Assembly (NCBI GenBank): GCA_900753715.1
Contig: CAAEAE010000033.1
Span: 1-30,342 of the forward strand
Direction of reading: 5' to 3'
DNA: 30,342 nt
Source: an uncultured Roseburia sp.
Lineage (GTDB): Bacteria > Bacillota_A > Clostridia > Lachnospirales > Lachnospiraceae
In this document: in pieces, positions 350 to 24,728 of the stretch
Numbering within the stretch: the stretch's first letter is position 1
Layout: each line of letters opens with the position of its first letter
Program-made: the position numbers and the translations under genes
The notes under the pieces: generated by a model
Database searches by the model: none
What the model was told of the DNA's origin: nothing
Seen by the model: the letters and a program-made list of their open reading frames with translations, nothing else

Positions 350-2056
350 TTACAACTCTACTACAAAATCCGCATGAGCCAGCGTGGACTCACGGTGCGC
401 AATCACAATAGTGGTACGCCCCGTCATCATTCTGTCCAATGCCTCATTTACCAATTTTTCAGAGTTATGATCCAATGCTGACGTTGCCTCATCCAAAATA
501 AGTATAGGTGCATTTTTCAAAATAGCTCTGGCAATGGCAATTCTCTGACGTTGCCCACCAGATAACAAATTTCCGCGTTCCCCTACTTTAGTCTCATATC
601 CATCTTTCAACTCCAAAATAAAATCATGTGCATTTGCAAGCTTTGCCGCATTGACAATATCCTCTTGACTTGCGCTGGGATTTCCATAACGAATATTTTC
701 TGCAATGCTTACATCATAGAGATATGGTTCTTGAGGCACATAACCTATCAGTTGCCGCACCTCTGCTAAAGAATATTCTTCATAGGCCTTTCCTTTGATA
801 AAGATTTTTCCTTTCTTTACAGGATATAGACCTAATATAAGCTTGGCAATGGTGCTCTTACCCTTCCCTGATTCTGCTTTAAGAGCCACGCATTTTCCCT
901 TGGGAATGTCCAAATTAAAATGTCGTAAAACATTCTGCCTGCCATCGTAGGAAAAGGTCATATCTCGGATACTGATTTCTGCATCTCCCTGAAAGGAAAT
1001 CGTCGATGCACTCTCATAGCGTTCAGGTTCCTCTTCAAAATCCAAAAACTCAAACACTCTTTTAGCATTAGCCAGATAACTTGCCATAGACGGAATATAA
1101 AGTCCCACTTGTAACAAATTCCAACTCATAGACCCATATAACAAATAAACTGCCGCCAGCCTATCCACCGTAGTAATTCCCTGACTAACAAAAACAAGTC
1201 CTAACGCAATAAACACTAAAGATCCAAGGAGTTCAAAGATCTGATTCAGTCCATCCAGTTTTGCAGACATAAGATTCATCTTGTTTTGCTCTTTACGATA
1301 TTTTTCATTTTCTTCAATATATTGTTCTACCATCACAGATTTCAAGGAAAATATTTTAATTTGTTCCATTCCTGACAAAATATTGGAAATTCGTTCGGTA
1401 ATGGATACATTGGTGGTGGACATTTCTCGGCTGACTCTTTGCATGGGTTCGATAAACATTCCATTTATCACAAACAGCGTAGCACTGGCACCGAAGAGGC
1501 AGAGCGTCACCTGCCAACTGAGTATCAACATTCCTATCAGGTAAAAGCTCATCATTAAAAATGGCATCAAAACCCGCCGAAAGCGAGAACCGTAGATACC
1601 TTGGGCCCGTTCACAATCATTAATTACTTTTGACATAAAATCGCTGCTGCCCGTCTGCTCATAATAGGAAAAAGGCAGCCGCATACATTTAGAATATAGA
1701 GCTTTTTGCAAATTAGCACCGCCTTTTTTTGCCTCCATAGTATATACATAAAAAGACAGTGCATAAACAAAAAGCGTCAAAAATCCTACCCCTACACACA
1801 TCAACACCTCCTCCCAAAGTCCCGTAAACATGTTCATCTGTGCATAATTTTCTACGCGAAAAATAATATTTTTAAACAAGAGTGCAGTTATCATATCAAA
1901 AACAGACAAAGCTACACTCATGAATATAATAGCAAAAAGATATCTGATAAGTCCTGTCTTCATCATTTTCAACATCCGCCAAAGGATGCGCAAGTCATTA
2001 TTGCTGTCCACATCTTTTGATCCACACTGTCTAATAATCACATCACTAAATGCCAT
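350..2056 (-). CDS. ABC exporter half-transporter (permease fused to ATPase), second of a pair
   Basis: A membrane exporter subunit with an N-terminal six-helix transmembrane domain (about residues 30-330) and a C-terminal ATPase. The Walker A is ESGKGKST, the signature is LSGGQRQR and the Walker B is ILILDEATSALD, followed by an H-loop in IVIAHR. All catalytic motifs look intact. The start ATG has a GGGAGGT ribosome site and overlaps the end of the upstream ABC gene by 11 bases, so the two are co-translated and probably form a heterodimer. The protein stops right after FVVEL, where relatives usually carry a short extra tail, so the last residues may be lost. The substrate cannot be told from sequence; peptides, lipids or drugs are all possible. 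A divergent AraC regulator lies upstream of the pair. Confidence 0.93.
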   Translation of the reverse strand: MAFSDVIIRQCGSKDVDSNNDLRILWRMLKMMKTGLIRYLFAIIFMSVALSVFDMITALLFKNIIFRVENYAQMNMFTGLWEEVLMCVGVGFLTLFVYALSFYVYTMEAKKGGANLQKALYSKCMRLPFSYYEQTGSSDFMSKVINDCERAQGIYGSRFRRVLMPFLMMSFYLIGMLILSWQVTLCLFGASATLFVINGMFIEPMQRVSREMSTTNVSITERISNILSGMEQIKIFSLKSVMVEQYIEENEKYRKEQNKMNLMSAKLDGLNQIFELLGSLVFIALGLVFVSQGITTVDRLAAVYLLYGSMSWNLLQVGLYIPSMASYLANAKRVFEFLDFEEEPERYESASTISFQGDAEISIRDMTFSYDGRQNVLRHFNLDIPKGKCVALKAESGKGKSTIAKLILGLYPVKKGKIFIKGKAYEEYSLAEVRQLIGYVPQEPYLYDVSIAENIRYGNPSASQEDIVNAAKLANAHDFILELKDGYETKVGERGNLLSGGQRQRIAIARAILKNAPILILDEATSALDHNSEKLVNEALDRMMTGRTTIVIAHRESTLAHADFVVEL

Positions 2057-3725
2057 TTGTTCGTACCTCCCTTCTCACAATTTCGCCATTTTCAAAGACA
2101 TATATCTCGTCTGCATCCGCAATAGTGTTTAGTCTATGTGCAATGGTTATCACCGTTCGATTGCGTGAAACTTCTCTCAAAGTTTCCTGAATCTCTCGCT
2201 CTGTCTCCAAATCCACTGCCGAAGTTGGTTCATCCAAAAGCAAAATAGGTGCATCCTTTAAAAAGGCTCGGGCAATTGAAACTCTCTGTTTCTGCCCTCC
2301 GGACAATCTTGCCCCTCGTTCTCCTACTTCCGTATCATAACCCTGAGGCAGTTTCATAATAAAATTATGAATATTCGCCTTTTTACAAGCCTCTATGATC
2401 TCTTCTCTGGTAGCGCTAATCCTACCATAAGCCACATTCTGTGCAATAGTGCCAGGGAACAAAAAAACATTCTGGGACACCAAACTAATATGTTTACGCA
2501 GCGCATTAATATTCCATTCTCTAAAATCATGTCCATAAATGCGGTATTGCCCGGCCTGTGGATAATAAAAACCACACAAAATCTTCATAATGGTAGACTT
2601 ACCCCCTCCAGAATTACCGATCAATGCTACATTACTGCCCCTTTTAATGGTCAGATTAATATTCTTCAAAATCTGCTTTTCTTCTGAATAACCAAAATTC
2701 ACATGCTTCAATTCAAAGGCAATCTCACCTTCAGGCGCAAAATCACCTTTTCCAGACACTTCCTCTTCCTGATTAAGAATCTCCTGTAATCTTTTTATAG
2801 AAATGCTATATTCTCGGATGGAAGCAATCTGACCCGGAATATTTCCCATAGGCTTTGAAATCTGATCCAGCAGCATTGCATAGGCCAAAATTGTGCCAAC
2901 GGTCATCCGTCCATGATATGCCTCATAGATGCAGAACAAATAACAGCAGAGCTTTGGTATCCATCGCACCAAATCCCCCACAACAAAGTTCATCGCCAGT
3001 ACCTTGGTTCGGCGTGACTCATTTCGCACAATCTCATCTGTTATATCAAAAATACGTTTCTTCTGTAGTTCATATAAATTAAAGGTCTTGCCAACTAAAA
3101 TACCTTGAATTACATCATAAGCAGAATTTTCCAATTTATCATACAACTGCCTGCGCACTACAGCTATTTTTCCAACCATTTTTGTCAGTTTCCCTGCACT
3201 CCAAAACAGCAATGGATAGCATACCATCGTCACTAACAACAGACGTACACTTTGTAAGCCTATGTAACTGCACACAGTTACTATAGTGATTATTGCTACT
3301 AAAAACTCCGGGATACACTCCGCAAACAGTGTCTCAATCTGATACATATCCGACAAAAGTTTATTCATTAAAGTTCCCGTTCCTTCTGAATCGAAATACG
3401 GAATACGGATCTTTACCAGCTTACTTACCAACATATTGCGAATATCCGTTTGCATACAAATACTGAATGTATTCTTGGAATAACTCTTTCCAAAAGCTAT
3501 TCCCCCTCCCAAGAGCATGAGAATAATAAACGGAATCATAAATTCTAACAAGGCAACATTTTCCCCGGTAAATAAGTTGTCTGTAGCGTTAGCAATTTTA
3601 CTACTTCCAACCACTATTATCAGAACTAATGCATAGGAAAAAAATATATACAAGAAACAAAAATACCAATATTTTCGAATAGCGTTCAAAAGATCAGAAT
3701 TTTTAGGGAATATAAAACTCTTCAT
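2046..3725 (-). CDS. ABC exporter half-transporter (permease fused to ATPase), first of a pair
   Basis: A type I ABC exporter half-molecule of about 560 residues: a transmembrane domain (about residues 15-320) followed by an ATPase. The Walker A is GNSGGGKST, the Q-loop region is SLVSQNVFLFPG, the signature is LSGGQKQR and the Walker B is ILLLDEPTSAVD. It is the first gene of a two-gene operon with the next half-transporter, which fits a heterodimeric exporter. The start ATG is preceded by AAAGGAGAGG at good spacing. The divergent AraC-type regulator 183 bases away is the obvious candidate controller. The exported compound is unknown. The regulator-plus-pair arrangement is common in Clostridia and need not be linked to the biosynthetic operon at 5159-9356. 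Confidence 0.93.
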   Translation of the reverse strand: MKSFIFPKNSDLLNAIRKYWYFCFLYIFFSYALVLIIVVGSSKIANATDNLFTGENVALLEFMIPFIILMLLGGGIAFGKSYSKNTFSICMQTDIRNMLVSKLVKIRIPYFDSEGTGTLMNKLLSDMYQIETLFAECIPEFLVAIITIVTVCSYIGLQSVRLLLVTMVCYPLLFWSAGKLTKMVGKIAVVRRQLYDKLENSAYDVIQGILVGKTFNLYELQKKRIFDITDEIVRNESRRTKVLAMNFVVGDLVRWIPKLCCYLFCIYEAYHGRMTVGTILAYAMLLDQISKPMGNIPGQIASIREYSISIKRLQEILNQEEEVSGKGDFAPEGEIAFELKHVNFGYSEEKQILKNINLTIKRGSNVALIGNSGGGKSTIMKILCGFYYPQAGQYRIYGHDFREWNINALRKHISLVSQNVFLFPGTIAQNVAYGRISATREEIIEACKKANIHNFIMKLPQGYDTEVGERGARLSGGQKQRVSIARAFLKDAPILLLDEPTSAVDLETEREIQETLREVSRNRTVITIAHRLNTIADADEIYVFENGEIVRREVRTNGI

Positions 3726-3807
3726 TCGTACCTCTCCTTTAGTATAAGTTATGTTGGAAACACTATCTCTTCATTTTCACCAAATTATACAGCATCTTTC
3801 AAGAGAA

Positions 3808-3831
3808 AACCTCTATATATACATAGAGGTT
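3808..3831. promoter_or_regulatory. Inverted repeat in the divergent ABC / AraC promoter region
   Basis: A perfect 9-base inverted repeat, AACCTCTAT - 6 bases - ATAGAGGTT, lies between the divergent ABC operon and the AraC-type regulator. No T run follows directly on either strand, so an operator is more likely than a terminator. The binding protein is not known; the adjacent regulator is a guess. Confidence 0.45.
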
Positions 3832-3908
3832 GCTTGATTTTTCAGTTTTTTTAATATATTTTAGAAGTAAAGAATTTATTTTGTTAAATAAGCATAAGGA
3901 GAACTACC

Positions 3909-4745
3909 ATGCCAGCGCCAATCCATCCAGACTACAATTTCAAAGTAAATCATAAAAAACGCGATAATCATTACTCTATGAATACCGCTGCATCCTATGA
4001 AAATATGTACGGTATTGGTTATATGCTTTCCGGAGACCGTATCATCGTTACTCCTCAAAAAACAATAACTGTACATCCCGGCACAATTCAGTTCATTCAC
4101 AAAAATCTTATACATCGTACTACTTATATTTCTGAGGGAATTTATGAAAATATTGATATAAAATTTCGGGAATCTATACTAGAACATATCATTTCAGTAA
4201 TCGGGCAGGAACGTTTTAATATGCTTTATGACCAAATTAGCATTACTCTCACCCCACAAGCCACCGAACAAATCGATCAGACTGTTAAGCTTATTGAACA
4301 TGAATGGAATAATTACGACACCTACTCGGATGCCATTATTCAAGGCCTTGTTGTACAATTTTTCGTAATAGCATTACGTGGACAATCATTTTCCCCCAAA
4401 AACGACGTCATTCTGAAAGAAACTCATTTTTCCTTAATAAATGCAATCTATTACGTTCAGTGCCACTATGCAGAGGATCCTTCCTTAAAAGAAACGGCAG
4501 CGGCAGTGCACCTATCTGATGCATATCTTTCCAGACTATTTACGTCTCGCCTAGATACAACCTACTCCCGTTTCCTCACAGGGGTAAAAATTTCTCATGC
4601 CATGGCATTACTTGTTAATACAAATTTGACCATTACAGAAATTGCCGTCCAATGCGGATATGACAACAGCAATTATTTTTCCGATGCATTTAAAAAAAAT
4701 GTCGGTATTTCTCCCTTAAAGTATAGAAAGACCCCTCTATATTGA
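3909..4745 (+). CDS. AraC/XylS-family transcriptional regulator
   Basis: A 278-residue regulator with an N-terminal cupin-like sensing region (about residues 1-150) and a C-terminal double helix-turn-helix (about residues 180-275). The second HTH carries the family signature ITEIAVQCGYDNSNYFSDAF, followed by the typical ending GISPLKYRK. The start has an AAGGAG site 8 bases upstream. It is divergent from the ABC exporter pair and probably controls it, in response to an unidentified ligand. The length is normal for the family and nothing looks broken. Confidence 0.92.
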   Translation: MPAPIHPDYNFKVNHKKRDNHYSMNTAASYENMYGIGYMLSGDRIIVTPQKTITVHPGTIQFIHKNLIHRTTYISEGIYENIDIKFRESILEHIISVIGQERFNMLYDQISITLTPQATEQIDQTVKLIEHEWNNYDTYSDAIIQGLVVQFFVIALRGQSFSPKNDVILKETHFSLINAIYYVQCHYAEDPSLKETAAAVHLSDAYLSRLFTSRLDTTYSRFLTGVKISHAMALLVNTNLTITEIAVQCGYDNSNYFSDAFKKNVGISPLKYRKTPLY

Positions 4746-5158
4746 TAACCTATTTTCAAAATAATAACCACCCATTAACGAGTGGTTTACTTCCCTCCTA
4801 CAGGATACAACTATTGTTCAACACCCAAAGCCACTAATTTCACTTTGTTCAAATCTATAACACCTTCAGAAAGACACTTGTGCAATCCCCAACAATTTTT
4901 TGCAGATGTCTTTCTATTATTAATGAGTGTCTATTTTTCTTTTAACTGAACATATATCCATTACATAGTCCATCCGTTGATTTGAAAAATTTAATATTTT
5001 TTAAATTTCTAAACTTTGTAGAGATTAATCAATATGCGAGTTATTTGCATGATACTCTTAATGCACAAGGTATGTATGAAAACCTTTTTAGTGAGTTTTA
5101 CGATTTGGCAACTTTTTAGTTTTCATCCTTCGCTTATAAATATAATTCTCGCATATTT
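4746..5158. other. Intergenic region with two hairpins and an orphan coding-like stretch
   Basis: It lies downstream of the AraC gene and downstream of the minus-strand nitroreductase, so it is a convergent spacer. AACCAC/GTGGTT at 4766-4787 is a small hairpin just past the AraC stop, without a T run. A longer imperfect hairpin spans 4868-4914, with AGAAAGACA pairing with TGTCTTTCT. A coding-like fragment follows (separate entry). Confidence 0.4.
4946..5119 (+). pseudogene. Possible C-terminal remnant of an unidentified protein
   Basis: There are 57 open codons ending in a TAG, with no usable start codon or ribosome site. The last 30 or so residues (QYASYLHDTLNAQGMYENLF, then SEFYDLATF) look like real amphipathic protein rather than random AT-rich translation. 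I do not recognise the family. It may be the tail of a gene cut off by rearrangement at the edge of the AT-rich island, or chance. Confidence 0.25.
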
Positions 5159-5668
5159 CTAATAAATTTCTTTATAAATCAATTTACTTAATTCTTTTCT
5201 ATCTGTTCGAGCCATAGCTCCATCTGCATATCCGATGCAAATTACAGCCATAAGCTCATAAGTCTCTGGTACATTAATGATTTTGTTCACTTCTGTTTCC
5301 CTTTGCAAAATTTCTCCTATCCAACATGTATCTATATTCATTGATGATGCCTGTAAACAGATATTTTCAATTGCAGCTCCAATAGCTTGCAAGTCTTTCT
5401 TATAATTATAAGAACTCTCATTGTCTAAATATATCATAATAAAGGCATCTGCTTCTTGCATCCACTCTCTATATATGGAACAACTAGCAATTTTATTTTT
5501 TGTTTCTTTTTCTTTTACAACTACAAATCTCCAAGGTTGACCATTTTTTCCTGAAGGTGCCCACCGTGCCCCCTCCAATATCGTATAAATATCCTGAATA
5601 GATACTGATTTTGCTAAAAATTTTCTACAACTTTTTCTACTTTTAAGCAGCGAATGAATTTCACCCAT
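5159..5668 (-). CDS. Small nitroreductase-family FMN oxidoreductase
   Basis: A 169-residue protein of the nitroreductase superfamily, whose members use FMN and NAD(P)H. The FMN-binding signature RKSCRKF (residues 11-17), the APSGKNGQPWRFVVV stretch (37-51) and the late GAAIENICLQA helix followed by WIGEI (97-121) are all present. It is at the short end for the family. The start has an AAGGGAG site. It is the last gene of the five-gene operon, 24 bases after the acyl ligase. In carrier-protein and RiPP pathways this fold often oxidises a bound substrate (amine, thiazoline or oxazoline) or reduces an enoyl or imine, so a tailoring role is plausible. The actual substrate is not predictable from sequence. 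Confidence 0.88.
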   Translation of the reverse strand: MGEIHSLLKSRKSCRKFLAKSVSIQDIYTILEGARWAPSGKNGQPWRFVVVKEKETKNKIASCSIYREWMQEADAFIMIYLDNESSYNYKKDLQAIGAAIENICLQASSMNIDTCWIGEILQRETEVNKIINVPETYELMAVICIGYADGAMARTDRKELSKLIYKEIY

Positions 5669-5692
5669 ATGGCAAGCTCCCTTTATTAACTT

Positions 5693-7147
5693 TCAATTTT
5701 CTTCTTGACATTTGGATCCTCTTACTAATTTACCAGATGCGTTCCTTTTCAACGCATCTACAATAGTAATTTTATCGGGCAACAAATGTCCTGGTAGCAT
5801 TTCACATAATATTTTCCATAGTTCACTTTCTGTTACTATCTGTTTTAACACAATATCTACATAAATTTGTTCTGTACCATTGCGTTTAACTCCATATGCT
5901 ACACAATTCTCTACATATGCGCATCTCAATAGAACACTTTCAATTTCTCTAGGATATATATTCAACCCCGCTTTTATAATCATATCATCGGCTCTTCCCA
6001 ATATATATAAATTATTATTCGGATCCTTATATCCCATATCTCCTGTCCATAAATAACCATCTCGAATTTTTTTGTTGGTCTCTTGTAGATCCTTATAATA
6101 TCCCACCATAATAGATTTTGATTTTACAATCACATGACCGAGTTTACCACTTTCAACATCGTTCCCCCTATCATCAACTATCCTTATTAGTGTATCTGTC
6201 AGCCCAATACCTACTGATTCTGGAAATTCGTCAAATTGGGAAGGCGGCAAAAAGCTAACTCTTGGTGAGTTTTCTGTCAAACCATAAATATTATATATTT
6301 CAGCATTCGGAAATGTCTTTCTAATATTTATAGCAATTTCTTTGGTTAAACATTCCCCACTCAAAGCCATTTTTCGAATTGATCTATTTATTTCTGCTCC
6401 CCTATACAGCCTCGATAATTGATTAAAAATTGTGGGAGTACCACACATAACTTCAATATGCAGGTCGTCAATCGTCTTCTTGATCAGAAATGGATCATAC
6501 TTTCCACTGTAAAATATCAAATCCAAGCCATTAACTAATGACACCAAGAGCTCACCTGTTAAAACAGCGCAATGATAAAAGGGACGCGATATTAATATTT
6601 TTTCCTTTTCTTTTATATCAAAATAATTTTGTATTGCTTTTATATTTGATAATAATCCTTGATCGCTAATCATCACACCTTTGGGAGTTCCAGTTGTCCC
6701 CGAAGTACACATGATTAAAGCTACGCTTTGTAAATAATCTTTTTCTGGACTATGCATGATAGAGGGCTGTTTGGGGTCATTAATATTGTATACTGGAATT
6801 TCAAAAGACATTTCATTTTCTGCAAAATCAATAGCTACTATATCTGGCTTTGTTTTTTCTATTATTTTCATGCAATGGTCTTTTCCATAGTTTTCAGACA
6901 TAATTATCGGTATTACTTTTGCCTTCAAACAGGATAAAATAAATGCACATTCATTCGTCTTATTTTTGCATAAAATTGCACATTTTGTTTTTGGTAAAAG
7001 AAGACTTGTAAATTTGTCATATAAATCATTAACATTACATATCAAATGTTCATATGTAAATTGTCTTCCTGATTCTATGTCCATAATACAAGACCCTTTA
7101 TGTTTATTTATATTAGTCTCCAAAAAATCCCATAACATAAACATCAC
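5693..7147 (-). CDS. AMP-forming acyl/aminoacyl ligase (ANL adenylating enzyme)
   Basis: A stand-alone adenylation enzyme of 484 residues. It activates a carboxylic acid with ATP and hands the acyl group to a thiol. Visible motifs are the P-loop TSGTTGTPKGV (about 148-158), YGLTE (288-292), TGD (368-370), hinge GRADD (384-388) and the catalytic lysine in NASGK (473). It directly follows the carrier protein gene, with GTGATG overlapping the carrier stop by 4 bases (GTG at 7147 or ATG at 7144). The natural reading is that it loads that carrier, as BtrJ-type or DltA-type ligases do. The acid could be an amino, aryl or fatty acid; I could not assign the pocket code. It sits in the AT-rich operon at 5159-9356. 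Confidence 0.9.
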   Translation of the reverse strand: MMFMLWDFLETNINKHKGSCIMDIESGRQFTYEHLICNVNDLYDKFTSLLLPKTKCAILCKNKTNECAFILSCLKAKVIPIIMSENYGKDHCMKIIEKTKPDIVAIDFAENEMSFEIPVYNINDPKQPSIMHSPEKDYLQSVALIMCTSGTTGTPKGVMISDQGLLSNIKAIQNYFDIKEKEKILISRPFYHCAVLTGELLVSLVNGLDLIFYSGKYDPFLIKKTIDDLHIEVMCGTPTIFNQLSRLYRGAEINRSIRKMALSGECLTKEIAINIRKTFPNAEIYNIYGLTENSPRVSFLPPSQFDEFPESVGIGLTDTLIRIVDDRGNDVESGKLGHVIVKSKSIMVGYYKDLQETNKKIRDGYLWTGDMGYKDPNNNLYILGRADDMIIKAGLNIYPREIESVLLRCAYVENCVAYGVKRNGTEQIYVDIVLKQIVTESELWKILCEMLPGHLLPDKITIVDALKRNASGKLVRGSKCQEEN

Positions 7148-7380
7148 CCTAAATTTTCTACCACTAATTCAATCACATTATCTACTGTAGAAAATCTACT
7201 CTGCGAAAGCATTGAATCATCAAAGCAAATATTAAATTCTTCTTCCAACATTACAGCAAGTTCAACATTTTTCAAGGAATCATACCCTAACTCTTTTAAT
7301 GTCATTCCTTTTTGAACCGCAATTCCAGTATTTACAACTTCTCCAATTACTTTAATAACTCTTTCATCTACATTGCTCAT
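7144..7380 (-). CDS. Acyl/peptidyl carrier protein
   Basis: A 78-residue four-helix carrier protein. The phosphopantetheine attachment serine is in LGYDSLKNVEL (serine 35 from this start), matching the conserved DSL motif. An in-frame TTG at 7386 would add two residues, but the ATG at 7380 is better placed. It overlaps the end of the upstream gene and is overlapped by the acyl ligase, so translation is coupled to both. Its job is to hold the acid activated by the ligase for the next enzymes. The DDSM stretch and acidic surface are typical. It is unlikely to be the housekeeping fatty-acid AcpP, because no fab genes are nearby. Confidence 0.92.
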   Translation of the reverse strand: MSNVDERVIKVIGEVVNTGIAVQKGMTLKELGYDSLKNVELAVMLEEEFNICFDDSMLSQSRFSTVDNVIELVVENLG

Positions 7381-8302
7381 ACACAATATCCATCCTTTCT
7401 AACGCCTTTTTCTTAACATTTTTTTGAATGCCTGTTGCTTCACCAACCAAGGCAATTACCTTGTCTAAATCATGGTTTTTTCGGATATTCATATACTCTA
7501 ACCTTAAATAAATGTTATCCAATCTTTTTATTTCATCCTCAATAAATTTGTCTGTTCCATATGCGCAAAAGAAAGCTTGCAATCTTTTTACTACAACTCG
7601 GTAAATACCTATACTATCTCTTATTTTCCCGAATCCAAGGTATAAATTTCCACTTAATATAACCTGAGACTTTAATTTCTGCTCTAGCTGAACTATTTTT
7701 CCCCTGTTGATTATAGATCCGATATTCTTATGGATGACTCGGATACTAAAGGCATGTTCTCTTCCTATATATTTTTTCAATTCAGCACTTTCAAAATTAC
7801 CTGTAAGATATGGTCGATCATTTACATAGGTATACAATCCATTTGTATTCTTACAACACATAATATAATGATCATTCCGCCACGCATTGATATTTAATAA
7901 TTCTTTGGTAGCACTTTCATTCAATTCCATCAAAAAAATTTGTTTAGAATCAATTCTTTCTATGTCTTCTAAATTCATCTGGACTAATTCTAACATCCCA
8001 TCATTAACCAATGTATTTTGAATCCGTTCAATAAACTTAATGGAACTATACTCTTGGCCTTTAAAAAGAAGATAATTTATTATTTCTTCAATGTCAAAGT
8101 AACTTTTATAGAAAATGCATTTCCAATTATAAGTTTCTCTACTCAGAACATATATAACATAATCTTCAACACAAGACAGTCCGAATTCATTTTGAAAATA
8201 ATCTTCCTCAAAAATCATATATACTCCATAGCAATATATTAACAATGTTCTGTTACATATACTTTCCAAATCATTACGCAAAAAGTCTCTACTCTGTATC
8301 AA
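7364..8302 (-). CDS. Hypothetical protein, possible BtrH-like acyl-carrier transferase / papain-fold protein
   Basis: A 312-residue protein I cannot place with certainty. Residues 139-190 read NAWRNDHYIMCCKNT, then GLYTYVNDRP, then an ELKKYIG helix. That layout (a histidine in HYI, a turn, then VND before a helix) resembles the catalytic His/Asp region of BtrH-type and C39-like cysteine enzymes. Cysteines 16 and 24 are candidate nucleophiles, and the C-terminal third is helical. BtrH moves an acyl group from a carrier protein to an amine in butirosin biosynthesis, which would fit the ligase and carrier next door. The start is TTG at 8302, overlapping the upstream stop by 14 bases; the next Met is residue 29. 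The family call is inference. The gene itself is well supported by operon position and coding character. Confidence 0.75.
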   Translation of the reverse strand: MIQSRDFLRNDLESICNRTLLIYCYGVYMIFEEDYFQNEFGLSCVEDYVIYVLSRETYNWKCIFYKSYFDIEEIINYLLFKGQEYSSIKFIERIQNTLVNDGMLELVQMNLEDIERIDSKQIFLMELNESATKELLNINAWRNDHYIMCCKNTNGLYTYVNDRPYLTGNFESAELKKYIGREHAFSIRVIHKNIGSIINRGKIVQLEQKLKSQVILSGNLYLGFGKIRDSIGIYRVVVKRLQAFFCAYGTDKFIEDEIKRLDNIYLRLEYMNIRKNHDLDKVIALVGEATGIQKNVKKKALERMDIVYEQCR

Positions 8303-9356
8303 TCAATTCAAGTGCTGCTATTCTATTTCTAAGTTCGAACCATTCAATAAAACTACAATTATATTGATATATTTTTTTCTTAATAGGATCATAAATCTGT
8401 TTCATATATGCCAAATCATGAGGACATATTTGTAATAAAAGTTTTTGAATATTTGCAATCTTACCTAATTGCGGAAAAATTTCAACAGTACGAAATATCG
8501 CATAATAGCATTCTTTGTTTAATTCCAAGTAAATTATTCGTTTTACTAGGGTATTCATTTGTTCAAGATCAAAATAGTAATTAAAAATAAGATTTAAATC
8601 ACTAAACTTATATAATAGTAAATCTTTTCTACGTTTTACCCAATCATATACTGTTGCTTCCTTATACAAATGGCAGCATAAATGTATAATAAAATCATTT
8701 ATGTTCAAACACTTAAATATATTCCCTTCATATGCCACATCAACTATATTATTTAATAATTCTTTTACTATTCTTTTTTCTTTTTCCGGTTTATAGTCAA
8801 TCGAAAAGTTTAAGTCAACCACTAATGGCTCTCCATTATATATTTTAACAAACGGAATTGTTTCACCAAAATTCATTCTTGCTAGTAATATATCTTTTCT
8901 AGTTGCTGGCACAATTTTTTTGCCCTTATCCAAAAAACCTTGTATAAATCCATGGTCAATAAGCACATTTTGACATTTCGACAAATCTTCCTCTTCAATA
9001 AGTATGTCTATATCATTAGATGTTCTCATACCATTTTTGTATAAACATGTATTTAAAAAAGCCCCTTTTAGTAATGCATATTTAAATCCTGTAGCTTCCA
9101 TAATCTGTGCAATATATTTTACATCTTCACAATACTTTATGTTTCTCTTAAGATTACTTTCATAAACAATTTTTAAATTTTTTATAATTTCGTTGGATAT
9201 ATTTATATTCGAATTGTTTACAAGGTTTTTATATGCAATACCTCCAATTCTATTCATACAAATTTGTCCTAAAAGCAATTCCAAATCTTCTCTTTGAAAA
9301 TCATAGTCAATTTGTGGCATAGTAGCATCGGCTAAAATAAATAATATTTTTTTCAT
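8289..9356 (-). CDS. Nucleotidyltransferase-fold family protein (NTP_transf_5 type)
   Basis: A 355-residue protein with the core of the uncharacterised nucleotidyltransferase family found in RiPP, capsule and natural-product clusters. LLKGAFL (95-101) is followed by the metal-binding RTSNDIDILI (111-120), where the DxD aspartates are 115 and 117. The N-terminal 80 residues and the C-terminal half are helical. It is the first gene of the five-gene operon, with ATG at 9356. A promoter with TTGACA and TTTAAT lies at 9405-9433, and an extra extended -10 (TGCTATAAT) is closer to the gene. The family is thought to transfer a nucleotide to a small molecule or protein, but its chemistry is largely unproven, so the role here is open: product activation, self-protection or regulation. 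Confidence 0.85.
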   Translation of the reverse strand: MKKILFILADATMPQIDYDFQREDLELLLGQICMNRIGGIAYKNLVNNSNINISNEIIKNLKIVYESNLKRNIKYCEDVKYIAQIMEATGFKYALLKGAFLNTCLYKNGMRTSNDIDILIEEEDLSKCQNVLIDHGFIQGFLDKGKKIVPATRKDILLARMNFGETIPFVKIYNGEPLVVDLNFSIDYKPEKEKRIVKELLNNIVDVAYEGNIFKCLNINDFIIHLCCHLYKEATVYDWVKRRKDLLLYKFSDLNLIFNYYFDLEQMNTLVKRIIYLELNKECYYAIFRTVEIFPQLGKIANIQKLLLQICPHDLAYMKQIYDPIKKKIYQYNCSFIEWFELRNRIAALELIDTE

Positions 9357-9404
9357 TTTTACTTTTTCCCATTCTTAAATATTATAGCAAGTAGTTAAAA
9401 TAAA

Positions 9405-9433
9405 ATTAAATTGCTCAAACTCATTTTTGTCAA
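9405..9433 (-). promoter_or_regulatory. Sigma-A-type promoter of the five-gene operon
   Basis: Read on the minus strand, TTGACA (9433-9428) is a perfect -35. A 17-base spacer leads to TTTAAT (9410-9405), one base off the -10 consensus. It would start transcription near 9398, about 42 bases before the first ATG of the operon. A second extended -10, TGCTATAAT with its hexamer at 9381-9386, may give a shorter leader. Confidence 0.65.
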
Positions 9434-9806
9434 CGTATACTTATGTATTATTATGCCTCCTTTGTATTCAATTCTTTATTAAATAAATAGTAACTTACTC
9501 AGTATTTCAAATAAACCAACTATTGTTCTCAAAAGTCTGTACGTATGGTAGTAAGCGTCAAGTCAATCTTCTTGATACGTTACCACTATTTGTAATATAT
9601 TTTTACACATTTTTTAGAAATATTTTTGTCTACAACAGTATCCAATATTTAACAAATGATAAAAGAATTTCATCTAAAATGACATAAATATACTTTTATA
9701 TTGAAAAAAGTGATCCGATTAGCAAAAGCCGACAGTCTTATATTAGTAGGGAAGGAGGAAACTGTTTAATAGAGAAACAAATGGCTAAATGCAACCAAAT
9801 AATTTG

Positions 9807-9813
9807 AAGGAGG
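9807..9813 (+). promoter_or_regulatory. Ribosome binding site fixing the start at 9822
   Basis: A perfect AAGGAGG lies 8 bases before the ATG at 9822. No comparable site precedes the TTG at 9877. Translation of this locus should therefore begin at 9822, in the frame that is later interrupted. Confidence 0.75.
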
Positions 9814-9821
9814 AACATATT

Positions 9822-9917
9822 ATGAACAAAATAAATTGGCGGTGGATTTTGTTGGCAATTGTGATGTTAATATGTATTGCAATCCTTTCTTATCTCAAGT
9901 CTCAAGGAAAAAATTAA
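9822..9917 (+). CDS. Out-of-frame N-terminus (single membrane helix) of the repeat protein
   Basis: Thirty-one codons with a perfect ribosome site encode a short basic start followed by a hydrophobic helix (WILLAIVMLICIAIL), then SYLKSQGKN and a stop. The frame ends inside the start of the large repeat protein, which lies in the +1 frame and has no ribosome site of its own. Deleting one copy of the 7-base repeat at 9893-9906 fuses the two frames into ...SYLKEKIKNTEII..., a smooth two-helix N-terminus. I therefore read this as the 5' end of one gene rather than a separate peptide. It could still be made as a 31-residue membrane peptide in the present sequence. Confidence 0.6.
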   Translation: MNKINWRWILLAIVMLICIAILSYLKSQGKN

Positions 9918-11088
9918 AAATACGGAAATAATAGCGAGGCTGGCCGCTATTATTGCAGTTGTGTCCGCTATTATAGGTTTTCTACCTTCATTTTGGAATA
10001 TATATCCAACAGATTATAATCCCTCACCGAGTCTAGCATCTTCATCTGAAGTAGTAGAAACTACACCAAAGCCAACACCAGCTCCGAAACCGACATTAAC
10101 TCCCACCTCAACAGTGCTACCGGAGGCAACGAATACCCTGCAGCCAGATTGGAGCATTTTGGAAAGTGAAGTAGTCAATGCAGGATCTGAAAGATTACCT
10201 GCAATTCAGGGGAATTTCTTTTCGGGTGAATTAAAATCGGAAAATCAAGATGATGTGTATAGCTATACGGCACCAATGTCAGGAATATATCGTTTTGATT
10301 TGGATTCCAGTGATGTGCAAACATCATATAAATTTTGTATATATACGACAAACAATACACAACTATGTAGTGTATTAACTTCTGATCGCAGTGGGCAAAC
10401 TGTTGAATTGGAAGCTGGACAAGAGTACATCATTCATTTGAAACAATATTCCGGCTATCAACAATATACAGTTACCATAGGAATCCCCAATGAAGTAAAA
10501 AATGTAGAAGGAACCAGTATACAGGGATGTATTTCTTTCACGGATCAAGAGGATAACTATTTATACGTGGCTCCGGAGACAGGAGTGTACTATTTTGACT
10601 TTGGCACGGATAATGTTCAATCAACATATTCTATCAAAATGTATAAATCTAATAATGAATATGTAATGTCAACATCCAGTTCAGAAGGTGGTAGGAAAAT
10701 TGAACTTGAAAACGGGGAGACGTATAAAATCAAAATAGTTCAGTATAGTGGTACAGAAAATTATAATGTACAAATAGGAGTGCCTAATCCAGTGCGGGAA
10801 ATGGACGGAAATGTGATCTATGAGCGTTTTGCCTTTCAGTTCCAGCAAAATATTTATTTGTATACGGCTCCATATTCTGGAAGGTATGAGCTGACTTTTG
10901 AAGAAGATGATATGCAATGTACTTATAATATAAAAGTATACTCTCCCATCAATGAAATCATATTGTCTGGATCAAATACGGAAAATAGTAAAAAGGTTGA
11001 TTTGATAGAAGGACAAGTTTATACAATAAAAATCATCCAGGGAACAGGATGTCCGGAATATAAAGTAACGATTGATTATGTAGGGTAA
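9877..11088 (+). CDS. Membrane-anchored protein with three beta-rich repeats (PPC-like)
   Basis: As it stands the frame opens with a TTG at 9877 (403 codons). The true start is probably the ATG at 9822, reached after removing a 7-base duplication (see the repeat entry). Features in order: a membrane helix (about residues 21-37, AAIIAVVSAIIGFLPSF), a Pro/Thr/Ser-rich stalk (about 45-90), then three repeats of roughly 95 residues. Each repeat has a YxYxAPxxGxYxFD-type strand, a short turn and a final YxIxIxQxSG strand, reminiscent of bacterial pre-peptidase C-terminal domains. It probably faces the outside of the cell and binds carbohydrate or protein, but no catalytic domain is present. Neighbours on both sides run the other way, so it is monocistronic. 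Confidence 0.8.
   Translation: MQSFLISSLKEKIKNTEIIARLAAIIAVVSAIIGFLPSFWNIYPTDYNPSPSLASSSEVVETTPKPTPAPKPTLTPTSTVLPEATNTLQPDWSILESEVVNAGSERLPAIQGNFFSGELKSENQDDVYSYTAPMSGIYRFDLDSSDVQTSYKFCIYTTNNTQLCSVLTSDRSGQTVELEAGQEYIIHLKQYSGYQQYTVTIGIPNEVKNVEGTSIQGCISFTDQEDNYLYVAPETGVYYFDFGTDNVQSTYSIKMYKSNNEYVMSTSSSEGGRKIELENGETYKIKIVQYSGTENYNVQIGVPNPVREMDGNVIYERFAFQFQQNIYLYTAPYSGRYELTFEEDDMQCTYNIKVYSPINEIILSGSNTENSKKVDLIEGQVYTIKIIQGTGCPEYKVTIDYVG
9893..9906 (+). repeat. Perfect 7-bp tandem duplication (TCTCAAG x2) causing a frameshift
   Basis: TCTCAAG occurs twice back to back (9893-9899 and 9900-9906), just where the reading frame of the repeat protein breaks. Removing one copy joins the frame starting at 9822 to the 403-codon frame without any other change. 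Seven is not a multiple of three, so gain or loss of a unit switches the gene off or on. Confidence 0.8.
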
Positions 11089-12048: not shown

Positions 12049-12681
12049 TCATTCAAACATTATCTTTTCCAATTGTCTCACTATTTGTTCATGTATCTGT
12101 TCTTTTTCCAAAGATGCATCACAAACAAAATAATCATTTTCATTACAGTATAAATCAAATCTAATTTTTGCTCGCTCCATTATATCAAAATCGCACTTTT
12201 TCTCCAATTTTTCGCCTGTAAGCTTCACTCTAGCCATTAATCTTTTTCGCGCTTCATTTACAGATAAATTCATATAAATACTAATATCTGGATTTGGTAA
12301 AATATCCAACATCTTGTCAACCAACTCTTGATTGCAATCTAATAAAGGTGCATATATTTTTGATTCAATTTTATACTTATCGCAAATAACAATATCCCCC
12401 ATAGAAAGTGCACGTTCTATTAAACTATAATATTTGTCATACATATCTAAAATATATGCAGTAAATCTAACTTCAGGCGTAAATGTTTCATAATACGATA
12501 AATCGTACCTTCGACACACCTCTCTTAAACATCTTGCATGTACTGACGGTTTAAATCCATGAATTACCTTTACACTCAAGCCTTTGCCTTCGAAATAGTT
12601 TTTTAAAAGCTCTGCTTGAGTTGTTTTTCCGCTTCCATCAAGACCACAAAAACATATAAATTTACCTTTACTCAAATTCAT
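12049..12681 (-). CDS. Thymidylate-kinase-like P-loop kinase
   Basis: A protein of the dTMP kinase family. Such enzymes move a phosphate from ATP to a nucleoside monophosphate. The Walker A is GLDGSGKTT, right after the start as in true Tmk. The usual DRY motif is DKYKIES, so the arginine that grips the substrate is lysine. A LID-like stretch (RLMARVKLTGEKLEKK) follows. These changes, the AT-rich composition and the partner genes suggest a specialised kinase rather than the housekeeping enzyme. The ATG at 12681 has AAGGGA before it; an in-frame ATG at 12696 lacks a ribosome site. The gene overlaps the end of the UDG-like gene, so the two are coupled. Confidence 0.85.
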   Translation of the reverse strand: MNLSKGKFICFCGLDGSGKTTQAELLKNYFEGKGLSVKVIHGFKPSVHARCLREVCRRYDLSYYETFTPEVRFTAYILDMYDKYYSLIERALSMGDIVICDKYKIESKIYAPLLDCNQELVDKMLDILPNPDISIYMNLSVNEARKRLMARVKLTGEKLEKKCDFDIMERAKIRFDLYCNENDYFVCDASLEKEQIHEQIVRQLEKIMFE

Positions 12682-13258
12682 ACTTCCCTTCTTCATCTGA
12701 ATTTTTCTGCACTTCCAACACTCTTCTTATCACATCTCTAATACCTGAAATATACTCTTGGACATCTCTCTTTTTATATATATATATATATGATGGATGC
12801 TGAATCGGAATAAAATAGCACCCTCCAATATCTGTATAGTAATATTTATAACCCCTCCACTTCTCAAAATGTTCTTGGTAATAATTTGCTACAGCTAAAG
12901 ATACTTTCTCTCCTAACAAAAAAACTATTTTAGGGGTTAAACTTTTTATTTCGTCATCAAGATTCTTTATGCATGTTTGTATTTCCGCATTTGTTGGATA
13001 TCGCAGTTTTCCCCTCTCATTTAACGGAGGACATTTAACTAAATTGGTTTTATATGTCACCATGTTAGGGATATCTTTTTCTATCATCTGAATAATCCTA
13101 CCAGTATTTGTTTCCGATGATAAAGGTCCTAACATTTTAGAACTTTTTTTGGCGGATAATCCTACCCAAAAAATTGCATCACTATTTTCTATATCCAAAG
13201 TTGGTTTTTGATTACAGCATAAACTACACTTATTGCAGATCAAAATATGTTCAAGCAA
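12668..13258 (-). CDS. Divergent Fe-S uracil-DNA-glycosylase-superfamily protein
   Basis: A 196-residue member of the UDG superfamily, closest to the Fe-S type (families 4/5). Cysteines 8 and 11 (CNKC), 76 (KTNLVKCPP) and 96 are spaced to hold a 4Fe-4S cluster. LTPKIVFLLG and the C-terminal HPS (154-156) match family landmarks. The N-terminal catalytic motif, usually GEAPG, is VGLSA here (32-36), so ordinary uracil excision is doubtful. The start is TTG at 13258 with GGAGGA at ideal spacing. It overlaps the kinase gene and follows the radical SAM gene by about 140 bases. It may process an unusual base, nucleotide or nucleoside, or repair DNA; the sequence does not decide. Confidence 0.82.
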   Translation of the reverse strand: MLEHILICNKCSLCCNQKPTLDIENSDAIFWVGLSAKKSSKMLGPLSSETNTGRIIQMIEKDIPNMVTYKTNLVKCPPLNERGKLRYPTNAEIQTCIKNLDDEIKSLTPKIVFLLGEKVSLAVANYYQEHFEKWRGYKYYYTDIGGCYFIPIQHPSYIYIYKKRDVQEYISGIRDVIRRVLEVQKNSDEEGKYEFE

Positions 13259-13400
13259 ATCAAATCCTCCAAAAATGTATATTTTCTTTTAAATTGTATT
13301 ATATCAATAGTTTCTTGTCCATATTATTGTTCTTAATTGCTACTATGCTTGTTATCATAATTATTATAATTTTATCTATTTTTAAAACTTACATTTATAC

Positions 13401-14729
13401 CTATGACAGTGTTAAGCTTTGAGTTTTTATTATATACTCATTTAAAATTTCATCCGTTTCTGAACTATAGTTGCCCGAACTAAAATTAAACTGCGCTCTC
13501 TTTTGCATCGCTTTTAATGTTTCATTAGGATGGCAAGGCGAAATGCTTCCATTCTCTTCAAGTATTTCATTATAAAGTTGAGTTCCATGATATGGACGAA
13601 ATTGAAACACACTTGTTCTAAATTTTCCTTTTGTATCCCTAGATATTCTTACTATATTTTGGGCCAGTTTATAGGTAGCCTCAAAATCTGCCTTTGTCTC
13701 TTTAGGAAATCCATACATAAAATAACCTTTTAAATCTATTCCATTTGCTAATATAGCTTCAGCCACCTTTATTACATCATCTATTTCCCCGAGTTTATTT
13801 ATTCTTTTTCTAATAGTCATTGAACCTGATTCAATTCCCATAAATAACTCACGGCAATTACACTCCTTTAATAGTTTTATTTTTTCAGTTGAACTAACCA
13901 AAGATAAAACATGCACCATTGCTCTCCAACTCAATTGTGGAAATTGCGAAAATATTCGTTGTGCCATATCAATACTTTCTCTATTTCTTAAGAATAAATC
14001 ATCCAGGATTCGTATACTCTTAACATCTGGATATAATAATTTAATCTCTTCGATTTCATTTTTTACACTTTCTTCTGAGCGTATCCGTATTGATACATCT
14101 TCATTAAGTCCCCTTGCACCACCACAGAAAGCGCAATTATAAACACAACCTCTTGACGTTATCATTGCAGCTTCTTTCTCTCCATAATGATTTTCAATAA
14201 TTTCATTTCCTAAATACTTACGATTTAATCGTACATTAGATATATCTTTTGGATAATATATTGAATGTTTATCAACTTTATATACCTTCATATTTTTCTT
14301 TATTAGAAATGGCGGCTCAGCACACTTATCCAATACAATGGATGGAATAATATATTCTCCTTCACCAATTATTATATTCAAATCACTATTCACGTTCCAT
14401 TCTAATATTTCATTAAATATACTTTTTACTACTTGTCCACCGATAAAACAACTTCCTTTTATCTTCATTTTTTCAACAATATACTTCACTATTGAATAGT
14501 TTTGTGTAAAAATGTTTATACCCCAAAAATCAGGATTAGCCTGATTAAGATAAGTAATAATGTCTCCCACACTTAATTTTTCTTTTACACAATCTACAAG
14601 TTCTACTTCTATTTTTTCTTCCTCAAGTCTAGTTGCAATATATCCTAATCCTATTGGTGACAAATAGTTTTCATTTTCTCCTTCACTATTCCAAAAAATG
14701 GGGGAATTTAATAGTACAAATTTTTTCAA
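13401..14729 (-). CDS. B12-binding-domain radical SAM protein
   Basis: A class B-type radical SAM enzyme. The N-terminal 150 residues form a Rossmann-like cobalamin-binding domain (SPIGLGYIATRLEE, FIGGQVV, IIGEGEY) without the DxHxxG base-off motif, as in many relatives. The radical SAM cluster motif CVYNCAFC (CxxxCxxC) follows, then FMGIESG and GYFMYGFP. Such enzymes methylate or rearrange unreactive carbons. The TTG at 14729 is the likely start: GAGGAG at 14738-14743 gives it good spacing and overlaps the in-frame GTG at 14738. The substrate is unknown. The gene leads the group with the UDG-like and kinase genes, separated by a 142-base gap that may hold its own promoter. Confidence 0.9.
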   Translation of the reverse strand: MKKFVLLNSPIFWNSEGENENYLSPIGLGYIATRLEEEKIEVELVDCVKEKLSVGDIITYLNQANPDFWGINIFTQNYSIVKYIVEKMKIKGSCFIGGQVVKSIFNEILEWNVNSDLNIIIGEGEYIIPSIVLDKCAEPPFLIKKNMKVYKVDKHSIYYPKDISNVRLNRKYLGNEIIENHYGEKEAAMITSRGCVYNCAFCGGARGLNEDVSIRIRSEESVKNEIEEIKLLYPDVKSIRILDDLFLRNRESIDMAQRIFSQFPQLSWRAMVHVLSLVSSTEKIKLLKECNCRELFMGIESGSMTIRKRINKLGEIDDVIKVAEAILANGIDLKGYFMYGFPKETKADFEATYKLAQNIVRISRDTKGKFRTSVFQFRPYHGTQLYNEILEENGSISPCHPNETLKAMQKRAQFNFSSGNYSSETDEILNEYIIKTQSLTLS

Positions 14730-14737
14730 AATTTTCA

Positions 14738-14743
14738 CTCCTC
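14738..14743 (-). promoter_or_regulatory. Ribosome binding site that selects the TTG start of the radical SAM gene
   Basis: GAGGAG sits 8 bases before the TTG at 14729 and overlaps the alternative GTG at 14738, which therefore cannot use it. Confidence 0.65.
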
Positions 14744-15058
14744 TTTAAAATATTATGGTACTTAATAATTTTACAAACTCTTGATTTTATTTAATTTTTG
14801 TTGTTCTAAATATAATCAACAATGCAAAAATTTTTTTAATAATATTAAAAAATATCTATATTTTTAGATATCATTAACTTCTTAAATTTCAAAAATCATT
14901 TCCATATGGAAGTTTTCTTCCTTTTTTGAGCCCCTATTGTTGAGCAGATTTATAACCCATTTTTACTAAAATTATAGTATTATTTTTCTTTAATTAAACC
15001 AGCTATTGTTCTAACTAACATACCTTTAGTAGACACCAATTATTTTGGATTCACACAA
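14744..15058. other. AT-rich junction between the cargo island and the conjugative remnant
   Basis: No gene was seen. An AT-only inverted repeat lies at 14852-14871 (ATATCTA / TAGATAT). A 17-base motif, AAACCAGCTATTGTTCT, at 14996-15012 has a near copy at 9513-9529. This is where the sequence passes from the conjugative module to the AT-rich genes. Confidence 0.4.
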
Positions 15059-15422
15059 TTATCCATGTTGATATATTTTCCCAGAATCCTTTTGTTTCTC
15101 TATCATAACTATAAAATTTAAAAGTTCCTTGTTTATATCATAATGAGCCCATACCATGCTCCACCTAACTTGCACAGTATCCTTTTTTTGCTTACTATAT
15201 AATAGTTTGTTTTTGCCTCCGTTTTCCAGCCAACATTGTTTCTTGCGTATCTCCGAATCTTCGATTGCCCTTTTGACCGTGCTGACAGACAGGTGCAGTT
15301 ATCCGTCAATGGTACCGATTGCCTGATAACTGCACCTGTCTTTATTGGCACGGCTCTCCAGATACAGGTACCGCAATGGCTCTATGTGGCAGATTCGTCT
15401 TATAAATTTCTCTTTTACTCAC
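15059..15422 (-). pseudogene. Decayed helix-turn-helix protein downstream of VirD4
   Basis: A GTG at 15422 with AGGAGGAGA before it begins MSKREIYKTNLPHRAIAV, 8 bases after the VirD4 stop. The frame then shifts to continue YLYLESRANKDRCSYQAIGT. An in-frame TAA (15299-15301) follows, and after it the recognition helix LHLSVSTVKRAIEDSEIRKK and the ending ENGGKNKLLYSK. Put together this is the small winged-helix/HTH protein that commonly follows the coupling protein in such elements. At least one frameshift, one stop and probably a short internal deletion make it non-functional. It marks where the element is broken. Confidence 0.7.
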
Positions 15423-15430
15423 CTCTCCTC

Positions 15431-17224: not shown

Positions 17225-18339
17225 AATGTCATGCCTCCTTCCGGTTCTTTCCTTGACTCCTGGGTATCTTCCTTCACCGATTTTAGCTGAGGTTCCTTAT
17301 ATTCAACGGCAACAAAAATATGAGCCCGGATGCATTCCATCGCAAAGCTCATACATTTTTTCACAAGAAGTTCTTTATTCTCTTTTTGTTGTAAATCTTT
17401 GGTTGCAAATACTTCCAGTGTCTCTTCATATGCCGTCTGCATCTGTCGGATCCGGGTATTGAAGTTTCCTTTATCCTTATGTGACCGGTAACGTTTCAGC
17501 AGATTCTCCAGAATCTGATTTGCACCGGTTTCTACCCCAAGGGCGACTCCTTCCTTCTCCATGCAGCGAACAAGAACACCGGTAAGTAACATTCCCGGCC
17601 CGTCAAAAGCATCCGTCACCTGTTCTTTGCTTCTGCCTTTCTTTAATTCTTCATAGATTTCCTGATAATACCGGCAGATATATGTTTTGTCCGCATACTT
17701 GGTTCCTATGGTTTCCGTCACTTTTTTCAACACTTCGATCCACGTCTGACACTCTTGCATCTTGGGATGTTCCTGCGCTGGAATTGCTTCTTCTCCACAC
17801 CGATTCTTCAGATCTTCATTCCAGTCTTTATAGGTCGACTGCAAACGCTTAATGTTTTTGTATCCGTTCCGCTTCAGAATCTCTGCCAGTCTGCCACAGG
17901 CTTCAATTCCCGCGGCATCATGGTCCAGACAGAGAATGACCGTATCCAGTTTGGAATTATCTTTTAATGCCTGCAGCATAGCATGCTCTGACACACCATT
18001 TAAAGTCATGTAGCTGTTCTCCTGCCAGTTATGAGGATAGAGTGTCAGAAAAGACAGCAGATCAATGGGAGCCTCAAACACATAAAGTCTGTTGCCGCCT
18101 CCCCGGTATCCGAACCCATAAGAGGAATCCGATCCTTCTTCATTCAGTCGAAAGCTCCTGCCATCCGAACAGGTTCCCTTAATATGAATATGGCGAATCT
18201 TCCCTTCCTTGTCCAGTCCGACAAACACGATATTATGATGCTCTGTGGATTCATAGAGTGTTCCCGTTTTTGCAAAGTAAGATAGAATCTCCCGGCCAAT
18301 ATGACGTTTTTGCAGAAGATACGCATAGACTCTTTTCAT
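17209..18339 (-). CDS. DUF3991/toprim-domain protein, C-terminal part of a frameshifted gene
   Basis: A primase-like protein with a toprim fold: the catalytic glutamate in FEAPIDLLS (89) and the DxD in CLDHDAAG (138-144). It begins MKRVYAYLL. The same frame is open back to about 18429, giving a linker that ends VLKPPEKNPT just before this Met, and no ribosome site precedes the Met. The N-terminal half lies in another frame directly upstream (18372-18734). The two halves together make the usual protein of about 500 residues. A one-base loss in an A-rich stretch between 18372 and 18429 would explain the split. It acts in replication or processing of the mobile element DNA. As it stands it is probably broken. 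Confidence 0.85.
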   Translation of the reverse strand: MKRVYAYLLQKRHIGREILSYFAKTGTLYESTEHHNIVFVGLDKEGKIRHIHIKGTCSDGRSFRLNEEGSDSSYGFGYRGGGNRLYVFEAPIDLLSFLTLYPHNWQENSYMTLNGVSEHAMLQALKDNSKLDTVILCLDHDAAGIEACGRLAEILKRNGYKNIKRLQSTYKDWNEDLKNRCGEEAIPAQEHPKMQECQTWIEVLKKVTETIGTKYADKTYICRYYQEIYEELKKGRSKEQVTDAFDGPGMLLTGVLVRCMEKEGVALGVETGANQILENLLKRYRSHKDKGNFNTRIRQMQTAYEETLEVFATKDLQQKENKELLVKKCMSFAMECIRAHIFVAVEYKEPQLKSVKEDTQESRKEPEGGMTLCSQS

Positions 18340-18371
18340 TGTCGGATTTTTTTCAGGTGGTTTTAGTACCT

Positions 18372-18734: not shown

Positions 18735-18758
18735 CGAAGCCTCCTTTTCTAATAGTTT

Positions 18759-22645: not shown

Positions 22646-22679
22646 ACTATTTACCCCTTTCGCCAGTCATACCTAGATC

Positions 22680-22694
22680 AGATAAATATTATCT
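22680..22694. promoter_or_regulatory. Inverted repeat upstream of the HEPN gene
   Basis: AGATAA - ATA - TTATCT lies 35 bases upstream of the HEPN start, in the 129-base gap after the RHH gene. It may be an operator or chance in AT-rich DNA. Confidence 0.3.
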
Positions 22695-22774
22695 ATCCCG
22701 TCGTCAAACTTCAAAGTAAAAACAAAATACTGTATATTTATTTTATAATGATATCATACTCTTGAACTTCATGG

Positions 22775-24666: not shown

Positions 24667-24692
24667 AAAATATTATCCTCCTTTATTTTTCA

Positions 24693-24728
24693 TAAAAAAG
24701 CAGCGCCTATTTTTTAATAAGCGCCGCT
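24693..24728 (-). terminator. Hairpin with T run after the ArdA-like gene (H2)
   Basis: On the minus strand AGCGGCGCTTATT pairs with AATAGGCGCTGCT (11 of 13 positions match) and is followed by TTTTTTATG. It begins right after the ArdA-like stop and ends about 30 bases before the next start. It can end the upstream transcript or attenuate the downstream one. It closely resembles the hairpin at 27472-27513. Confidence 0.7.

Follow-up and report, generated by a model that had tools for sequence, protein, structure and literature searches.

A five-gene carrier-protein operon from an uncultured Roseburia with a papain-like candidate amide synthetase and a nucleotidyltransferase-fold partner

What might five adjoining genes make when they encode little more than a carrier protein, an acid ligase and three proteins of unclear purpose? 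We addressed this question for an operon in contig CAAEAE010000033.1 of an uncultured Roseburia sp. The window is the whole stretch of this contig that was analysed (30,342 nucleotides), and the operon occupies window positions 5159..9356 on the minus strand. An earlier interpretation made without database searches (the sequence-only reading) had claimed five open reading frames here, and we found all of them where it had put them: from 5' to 3' a NTP_transf_5 protein, an unannotated protein of 284 amino acids, a carrier, an AMP-forming ligase and a nitroreductase. Pfam agrees with the families that it had named (NTP_transf_5, PP-binding, AMP-binding with its C-terminal domain, and Nitroreductase). 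We assign a probability of about 60% to the reading that this operon encodes free-standing proteins of a small thiotemplated assembly line, with a specialised metabolite as its product. Its catalytic steps, its substrates and its product we infer throughout from what can be observed, namely gene order and its conservation, selection, motifs, a predicted fold, invariant residues and carrier fusions in relatives.

The operon and its counterpart in a second genome

The presence of the same five genes together elsewhere had been set beforehand as a test of the operon. Scanning genome contigs with a profile of 19 aligned gene 2 proteins narrowed 104 candidate stretches to one locus, L001, in a Lachnoclostridium metagenome-assembled genome, which contains the five genes in the same order. 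The encoded proteins are 70% (gene 1, NTP5), 67% (gene 2), 83% (carrier), 82% (ligase) and 76% (nitroreductase) identical to those of the window, and the DNA matches at 78.8% over 4.2 kb (window 5137-9351), spanning all five genes. This likeness exceeds chance. All five pairs have a ratio of nonsynonymous to synonymous substitution rates (dN/dS) of 0.14-0.27, averaged over both lineages. We regard the operon as genuine, conserved and subject to selection.

The genes are tightly packed. As described previously, the ligase and carrier genes overlap by 4 bases, carrier and gene 2 by 17 bases (ATG at 7380) or 23 bases (TTG at 7386), and 24 bases separate ligase and nitroreductase. The 14-base overlap reported for genes 1 and 2 exists if gene 2 begins at TTG 8302. 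Most likely, however, it begins at ATG 8218, because most homologues (284 amino acids) start at the same residue and GGAG lies just upstream; the two genes would therefore be separated by about 70 bases and not overlap. Scanning did not support the claim of one good promoter: we counted 32 promoter-like sites in 3600-10000 compared to 37.9 in shuffled sequences. A possible promoter or operator is a conserved block of 48 bases (9503..9550, minus strand) located 150-200 bases upstream of the operon. It is 87.5% identical to its counterpart upstream of the L001 operon (8669-8716), and this is the only blastn match immediately upstream of the operon. A terminator-like stem follows the operon on the same strand (4766..4787). 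In 2-kb segments the G+C content is 27-34% between 4001 and 10000, with values of up to 46.6% in other parts of the window.

The distribution of the gene set is rare and patchy. Whole-genome searches detected gene 2 relatives in 3 of 397 genomes of the family, in 2 of 392 of the order, one of them being genome G001 again, and in 4 of 391 of the class. The last four comprise G001 once more, one strong match and two weak ones of about 20 bits (G877 and G1081, of which one contains an internal stop), which we dropped. Among 61 genomes of the genus and 61 relatives only G001 has a gene 2 relative, and no match was found in plasmids searched by DNA, in phages searched by protein or in viral contigs. 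In the six gene 2 loci that we compared, window included, the carrier directly follows gene 2 every time, albeit cut by the contig end in L009. This same contig end accounts for the only locus without the ligase (5/6). NTP5 is directly upstream of gene 2 in five loci, and L014 encodes a shorter PF14907 protein (71.9 bits) 2 kb upstream. Carrier and NTP5 are the most constant partners of the set. The nitroreductase, which the sequence-only reading had proposed as a possible tailoring enzyme, occurs in two of the six (tblastn E<=1e-3; L009 cut) and is an accessory. L014 also encodes an FkbH protein (229.5 bits, cut-off 146.65), three carriers in all, an ABC (ATP-binding cassette) exporter and a BtrH_N-like protein (26.6 bits) that falls just under the cut-off of 29.7, as does one in L047.

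Candidate enzymes of the assembly line

Gene 2 (7364..8218, minus strand) codes for a papain-like, Cta-like candidate for a carrier-dependent acyltransferase or amide synthetase. Its predicted fold matches that of CcbD, AziU3 and CtaG along the full length of the protein, and the match extends to the helical C-terminal part. Cys16, His117, Asn133 and Asp134 are invariant across 25 aligned sequences (alignment A6, drawn from 45 proteins found; near-duplicates, fragments, chimeras and P0033 were left out), and the Cys-His-Asp/Glu spacing resembles that of C11/H128/D144 in CtaG, as given in PDB titles. Gene 2 may act on a carrier-protein thioester: two relatives (P0029 and P0043) are transferase-carrier fusions, and a carrier adjoins gene 2 in all six loci. 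The sequence-only reading had described a BtrH-like protein that passes an acyl group to an amine. The transfer logic fits this evidence, but the family does not: gene 2 has no match to BtrH_N (PF14399) even at E<=10, nor to any other Pfam family, and fits the CcbD/AziU3/CtaG class instead.

Gene 1 (NTP5; 8289..9356, minus strand; 355 amino acids) is a nucleotidyltransferase-fold protein of family PF14907 (111.6 bits, cut-off 31.2) with an intact DxD motif and third Asp. Lys97, Gly98, Asp115, Asp117 and Asp181 are invariant, the three Asp residues having been checked over 31 sequences (alignment A7: the window protein and 30 of 120 listed homologues). The fold comes closest to MenT-type nucleotidyltransferases, in a group that includes LnuA and ANT(2'')-Ia, enzymes with small molecules as substrates. 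A carrier is encoded within 6 kb in 9 of 11 NTP5 loci, in 6 of 8 when loci that were already rows of the search profile are set aside, compared with a single one of 8 comparison stretches (124 kb altogether). Carrier-NTP5 (P0078) and thymidylate kinase-carrier (L024) fusions occur, and some NTP5 relatives adjoin kinases. These carrier-rich loci, together with the fusions P0078, L024, P0029 and P0043, raise the tentative and rather doubtful idea that NTP_transf_5 proteins, joined in some relatives by thymidylate-kinase-like kinases, phosphorylate or nucleotidylate acids bound to an acyl carrier, and that the window's branch then releases an amide by way of its papain-like enzyme. A plasmid search with gene 1 returned two records at 25-26% identity. 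Several gene 2 and NTP5 clusters share longest-contig values (5239, 5786, 5778, 29572, 87854 and others), which suggests, as an unproven hint, that they come from the same contigs.

Several NTP5 loci deserve description in their own right. In L024 the kinase-carrier fusion (5897-6799) adjoins NTP5 and a ligase. L047 (4963-10308) reads as an operon of NTP5, kinase, carrier, ligase and two papain-like candidates, and L044 (3480-8225) as one of carrier, kinase, NTP5, a radical SAM-like gene and ABC genes. In L043 (4627-6153) a diaminopimelate-decarboxylase-like protein (lysA 307 bits, cut-off 298) is fused to a carrier domain beside NTP5.

The carrier, gene 3 (7144..7380, minus strand; 78 amino acids; PF00550 28.7 bits, cut-off 20.8), retains the serine that had been described as intact: Ser35 lies in a GYDSL motif and is invariant over seven aligned carriers. 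Gene 4 (5693..7147, minus strand; 484 amino acids) has the AMP-binding domain (169.8 bits, cut-off 29.9) and the C-terminal domain (35.5, cut-off 24.5) of an AMP-forming acid ligase, and its motifs TSGTTGTPKG (at 148) and TGD (at 368) are intact, as is Lys473. Four ligases were aligned (A4), and among PDB entries a feruloyl-CoA synthetase matches best. In a single alignment to the first adenylation domain of a peptide synthetase (8xjz chain C), Ala194 occupies the position of an Asp. Such an Asp binds an alpha-amino group. Because of this replacement, the substrate of gene 4 is probably a small aryl or acyl acid rather than an alpha-amino acid. Gene 5 (5159..5668, minus strand; 169 amino acids; PF00881 112.3 bits, cut-off 23.5) is by sequence an ordinary member of the nitroreductase family of flavin oxidoreductases, with 3e39 as its best PDB match. 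Any role of gene 5 in the operon is a guess; a nitroreductase-family oxidase that desaturates N-acyl-tyrosine has been described (PMC10404671). No NCBIfam cut-off was reached by the carrier (17 models listed), the ligase (25 of 110 listed) or the nitroreductase (11 models matched).

These proteins could cooperate as follows. A phosphopantetheinyl transferase of the host would arm the carrier, and gene 4 would adenylate and load a small, probably aryl or acyl, carboxylic acid. Gene 2 would take the acyl group on Cys16 and hand it to an amine to form an amide, a reaction reported for CcbD and proposed for CtaG. Gene 5 may oxidise or reduce either the group on the carrier or the product, and gene 1 would probably add a nucleotidyl or phospho group to the carrier-bound group or to the amine partner. 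Of the sequence-only reading, the logic of ligase, carrier and acyl transfer survives; the nitroreductase, however, is an accessory, no role had been given to NTP5, and the related operon in L001 runs into three more genes.

Competing readings and the surroundings of the operon

Several observations weigh against an amide-forming assembly line. Gene 2 is only 6-14% identical to CtaG, AziU3 and CcbD, no PDB sequence relative emerges even with its profile, its putative catalytic triad was placed by sequence, and a shared predicted fold is no proof of amide synthesis. The operon contains no amine source, product or phosphopantetheinyl transferase. An NTP5 homologue on a Streptomyces plasmid (25% identity) has no carrier in the surrounding 20.8 kb and locus L045 has none either, so that the link between gene 1 and carriers is not universal. 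The window's assembly line may also be incomplete, since L001 continues directly with 13115-14704, which encodes a BtrH_N protein (31.4 bits, cut-off 29.7), and with 14728-15414 and 15420-15641, the genes after the BtrH_N gene coding for a thioesterase (102.4 bits) and another carrier protein; none of the three is present in the window. The operon might then be a cut-down remnant of L001's eight-gene cluster that makes an intermediate only, or nothing. A short ATG-led stretch just past the nitroreductase has, by eye, a weak likeness to the start of the missing L001 gene. In addition, in P0018 (Waltera sp.) the N-terminal part of gene 2 runs into the final 108 thioesterase residues, which are 72% identical to those of L001, a chimera that points to a deletion in the same region of this cluster in another genome. 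However, the DNA match to L001 stops about 22 bases beyond the nitroreductase stop, which leaves a remnant unproven; all five window genes are open with intact motifs and the low dN/dS given above; and tblastn did not find the three extra proteins in L006, L007, L009 or L014, and they are therefore not general parts of the set. We consider a remnant unlikely.

DltA and DltC fall within the broad superfamilies of the ligase and the carrier, which invites the thought of housekeeping, with a Dlt-like or fatty-acid-type system adding acyl groups to the envelope. Yet DltA reached 139 of 476 bits and DltC 24.4 of 68, every listed model for carrier (17) and ligase (25 of 110) scored below its cut-off, and neither an MBOAT/DltB nor a fatty-acid synthase protein was found among the 19 window proteins scanned. 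A housekeeping role would also sit badly with so rare and patchy a distribution, and we find it very improbable; the Dlt or fatty-acid identity that had been named as fatal to the sequence-only reading did not emerge. A defence or regulatory system that modifies nucleic acids or nucleotides, with gene 1 as the effector and carrier and ligase as suppliers of an acyl group, is likewise improbable. The fold group of gene 1 includes small-molecule enzymes, the relatives carry FkbH, thioesterase, a PLP (pyridoxal phosphate) decarboxylase-carrier fusion and exporters, which is the dress of metabolite clusters, and the radical SAM/UDG pair of the window is found elsewhere without NTP5.

An assembly line for a metabolite could include the nearby exporter, whose halves lie at 2046..3725 and 350..2056 (both minus strand). 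An AraC-family regulator (3909..4745, plus strand; PF12833 77.9 bits) stands between it and the operon and possibly regulates either. An AraC gene and an ABC pair also follow the operon in L001, but they are not close orthologues (AraC 28% over 174 amino acids, DNA-binding part included; ABC 24-35% over partial lengths). The carrier gene of L006 shares 14 bases with an ABC pair of the same subfamily, of which the window pair is a full-length relative (40% and 34%). As a control, one exporter half was searched against 100 family genomes: two (G023, G095) had a single match above 262 bits, and G001 had one split into two. Equally close or closer pairs are present there in L015 (44/41%), L017 (42/39%) and L016 (38/36%; tblastn, window halves b/a), where the 11-14 kb fetched contain neither a gene 2 or NTP5 relative nor a ligase relative. 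L017 has one carrier, near seemingly fatty-acid genes. The exporter is a possible member of the operon's unit.

A thymidylate-kinase-like gene of the window was considered as a further member and rejected for now, as a separate B12 radical SAM/UDG unit explains it better. At 12668-14738 a B12-binding radical SAM gene precedes a UDG-superfamily gene, and the same pair (60% and 53%) adjoins an integrase-like gene (by eye) in L049, where 11 kb gave no kinase, carrier or NTP5 profile match. It looks like a separate two-gene unit; the UDG protein was found in 1 of 120 family genomes and in no plasmid. Identity between the window kinase and the carrier-linked subfamily (L007, L024 and L029) is no more than 24-26%. 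Counter to this rejection, the only PF02223 match of G001 lies near its cluster and that of G392 13 kb from its cluster, with B12 radical SAM-like genes by eye. Elsewhere in the window we noted a mobilisation module (15431-26360) with a type IV secretion coupling protein, a Toprim primase-like protein, a MobL relaxase with Sel1 repeats (888 amino acids), an EC042_2821 endonuclease-like protein, a ribbon-helix-helix protein and an ArdA-like antirestriction protein. An integrative element ending near an RNA methyltransferase-like gene (by eye) at 27710 may carry the operon as cargo or lie next to it. The divergent gene at 9877-11088 encodes a protein in which, by eye, a membrane anchor is likely and similar blocks recur; its Pfam matches are all sub-threshold.

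Likeness to known systems

We found no description of this gene set among the matches listed from open-licence literature, and NTP_transf_5 gave no match there by name. Genome mining easily misses clusters without polyketide synthase or nonribosomal peptide synthetase modules, although closthioamide and lincomycin arise from such chemistry. Here, too, Pfam detected no condensation or ketosynthase domain among the 19 window proteins scanned. With five proteins and one carrier, this operon is small enough for reconstitution in vitro.

Four systems invite comparison. The closthioamide (cta) cluster of Ruminiclostridium (CtaG/CtaH/CtaI) likewise combines free-standing carriers and a ligase with a papain-like peptidyl transferase, which shares the fold and has been proposed to act on a carrier-bound acid (PMC6772006; PDB 9qvj and relatives). 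Unlike cta, the 19 window proteins scanned include no thioamide synthetase CtaC or ATP-grasp CtaD, the operon has NTP_transf_5 and a nitroreductase, and gene 2 shares 6-14% identity with CtaG. Lincosamide synthetase (CcbD/LmbD) is the best structural match to the predicted fold of gene 2. CcbD is reported to form amides from a carrier protein by ping-pong catalysis with a Cys triad (PMC12945683). It differs in condensing carrier-bound proline with a thiooctose and is 8-10% identical to gene 2; the portion of that paper available to us mentions no nucleotidyltransferase of the NTP5 family.

In butirosin acylation BtrI, BtrJ and BtrK also take part. The L001 BtrH_N protein and its near-threshold counterparts in L014 and L047 resemble this system, and the L043 decarboxylase-carrier fusion recalls its BtrK/BtrI step. 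BtrH itself is described as a papain-like protein that moves a carrier-bound acyl group to an amine (PMC10318531). Unlike butirosin, gene 2 lacks a BtrH_N match and we noticed no aminoglycoside gene in the loci read. For gene 1 a possible parallel is lasso-peptide tailoring, where PsmN, annotated as a nucleotidyltransferase, partners the kinase PsmK (PMC9266682), much as some gene 1 relatives adjoin kinases. PsmN, which may or may not belong to PF14907, differs in acting on a ribosomal peptide.

The operon is a new variation on a known logic, a carrier protein paired with a papain-like amide synthetase, joined by an unexplained nucleotidyltransferase partner. This partner is its most interesting part: the relatives reveal a recurring link to acyl carriers for a family that Pfam calls an uncharacterised nucleotidyltransferase, and pose the question of whether NTP_transf_5 proteins act on a carrier-bound acid.
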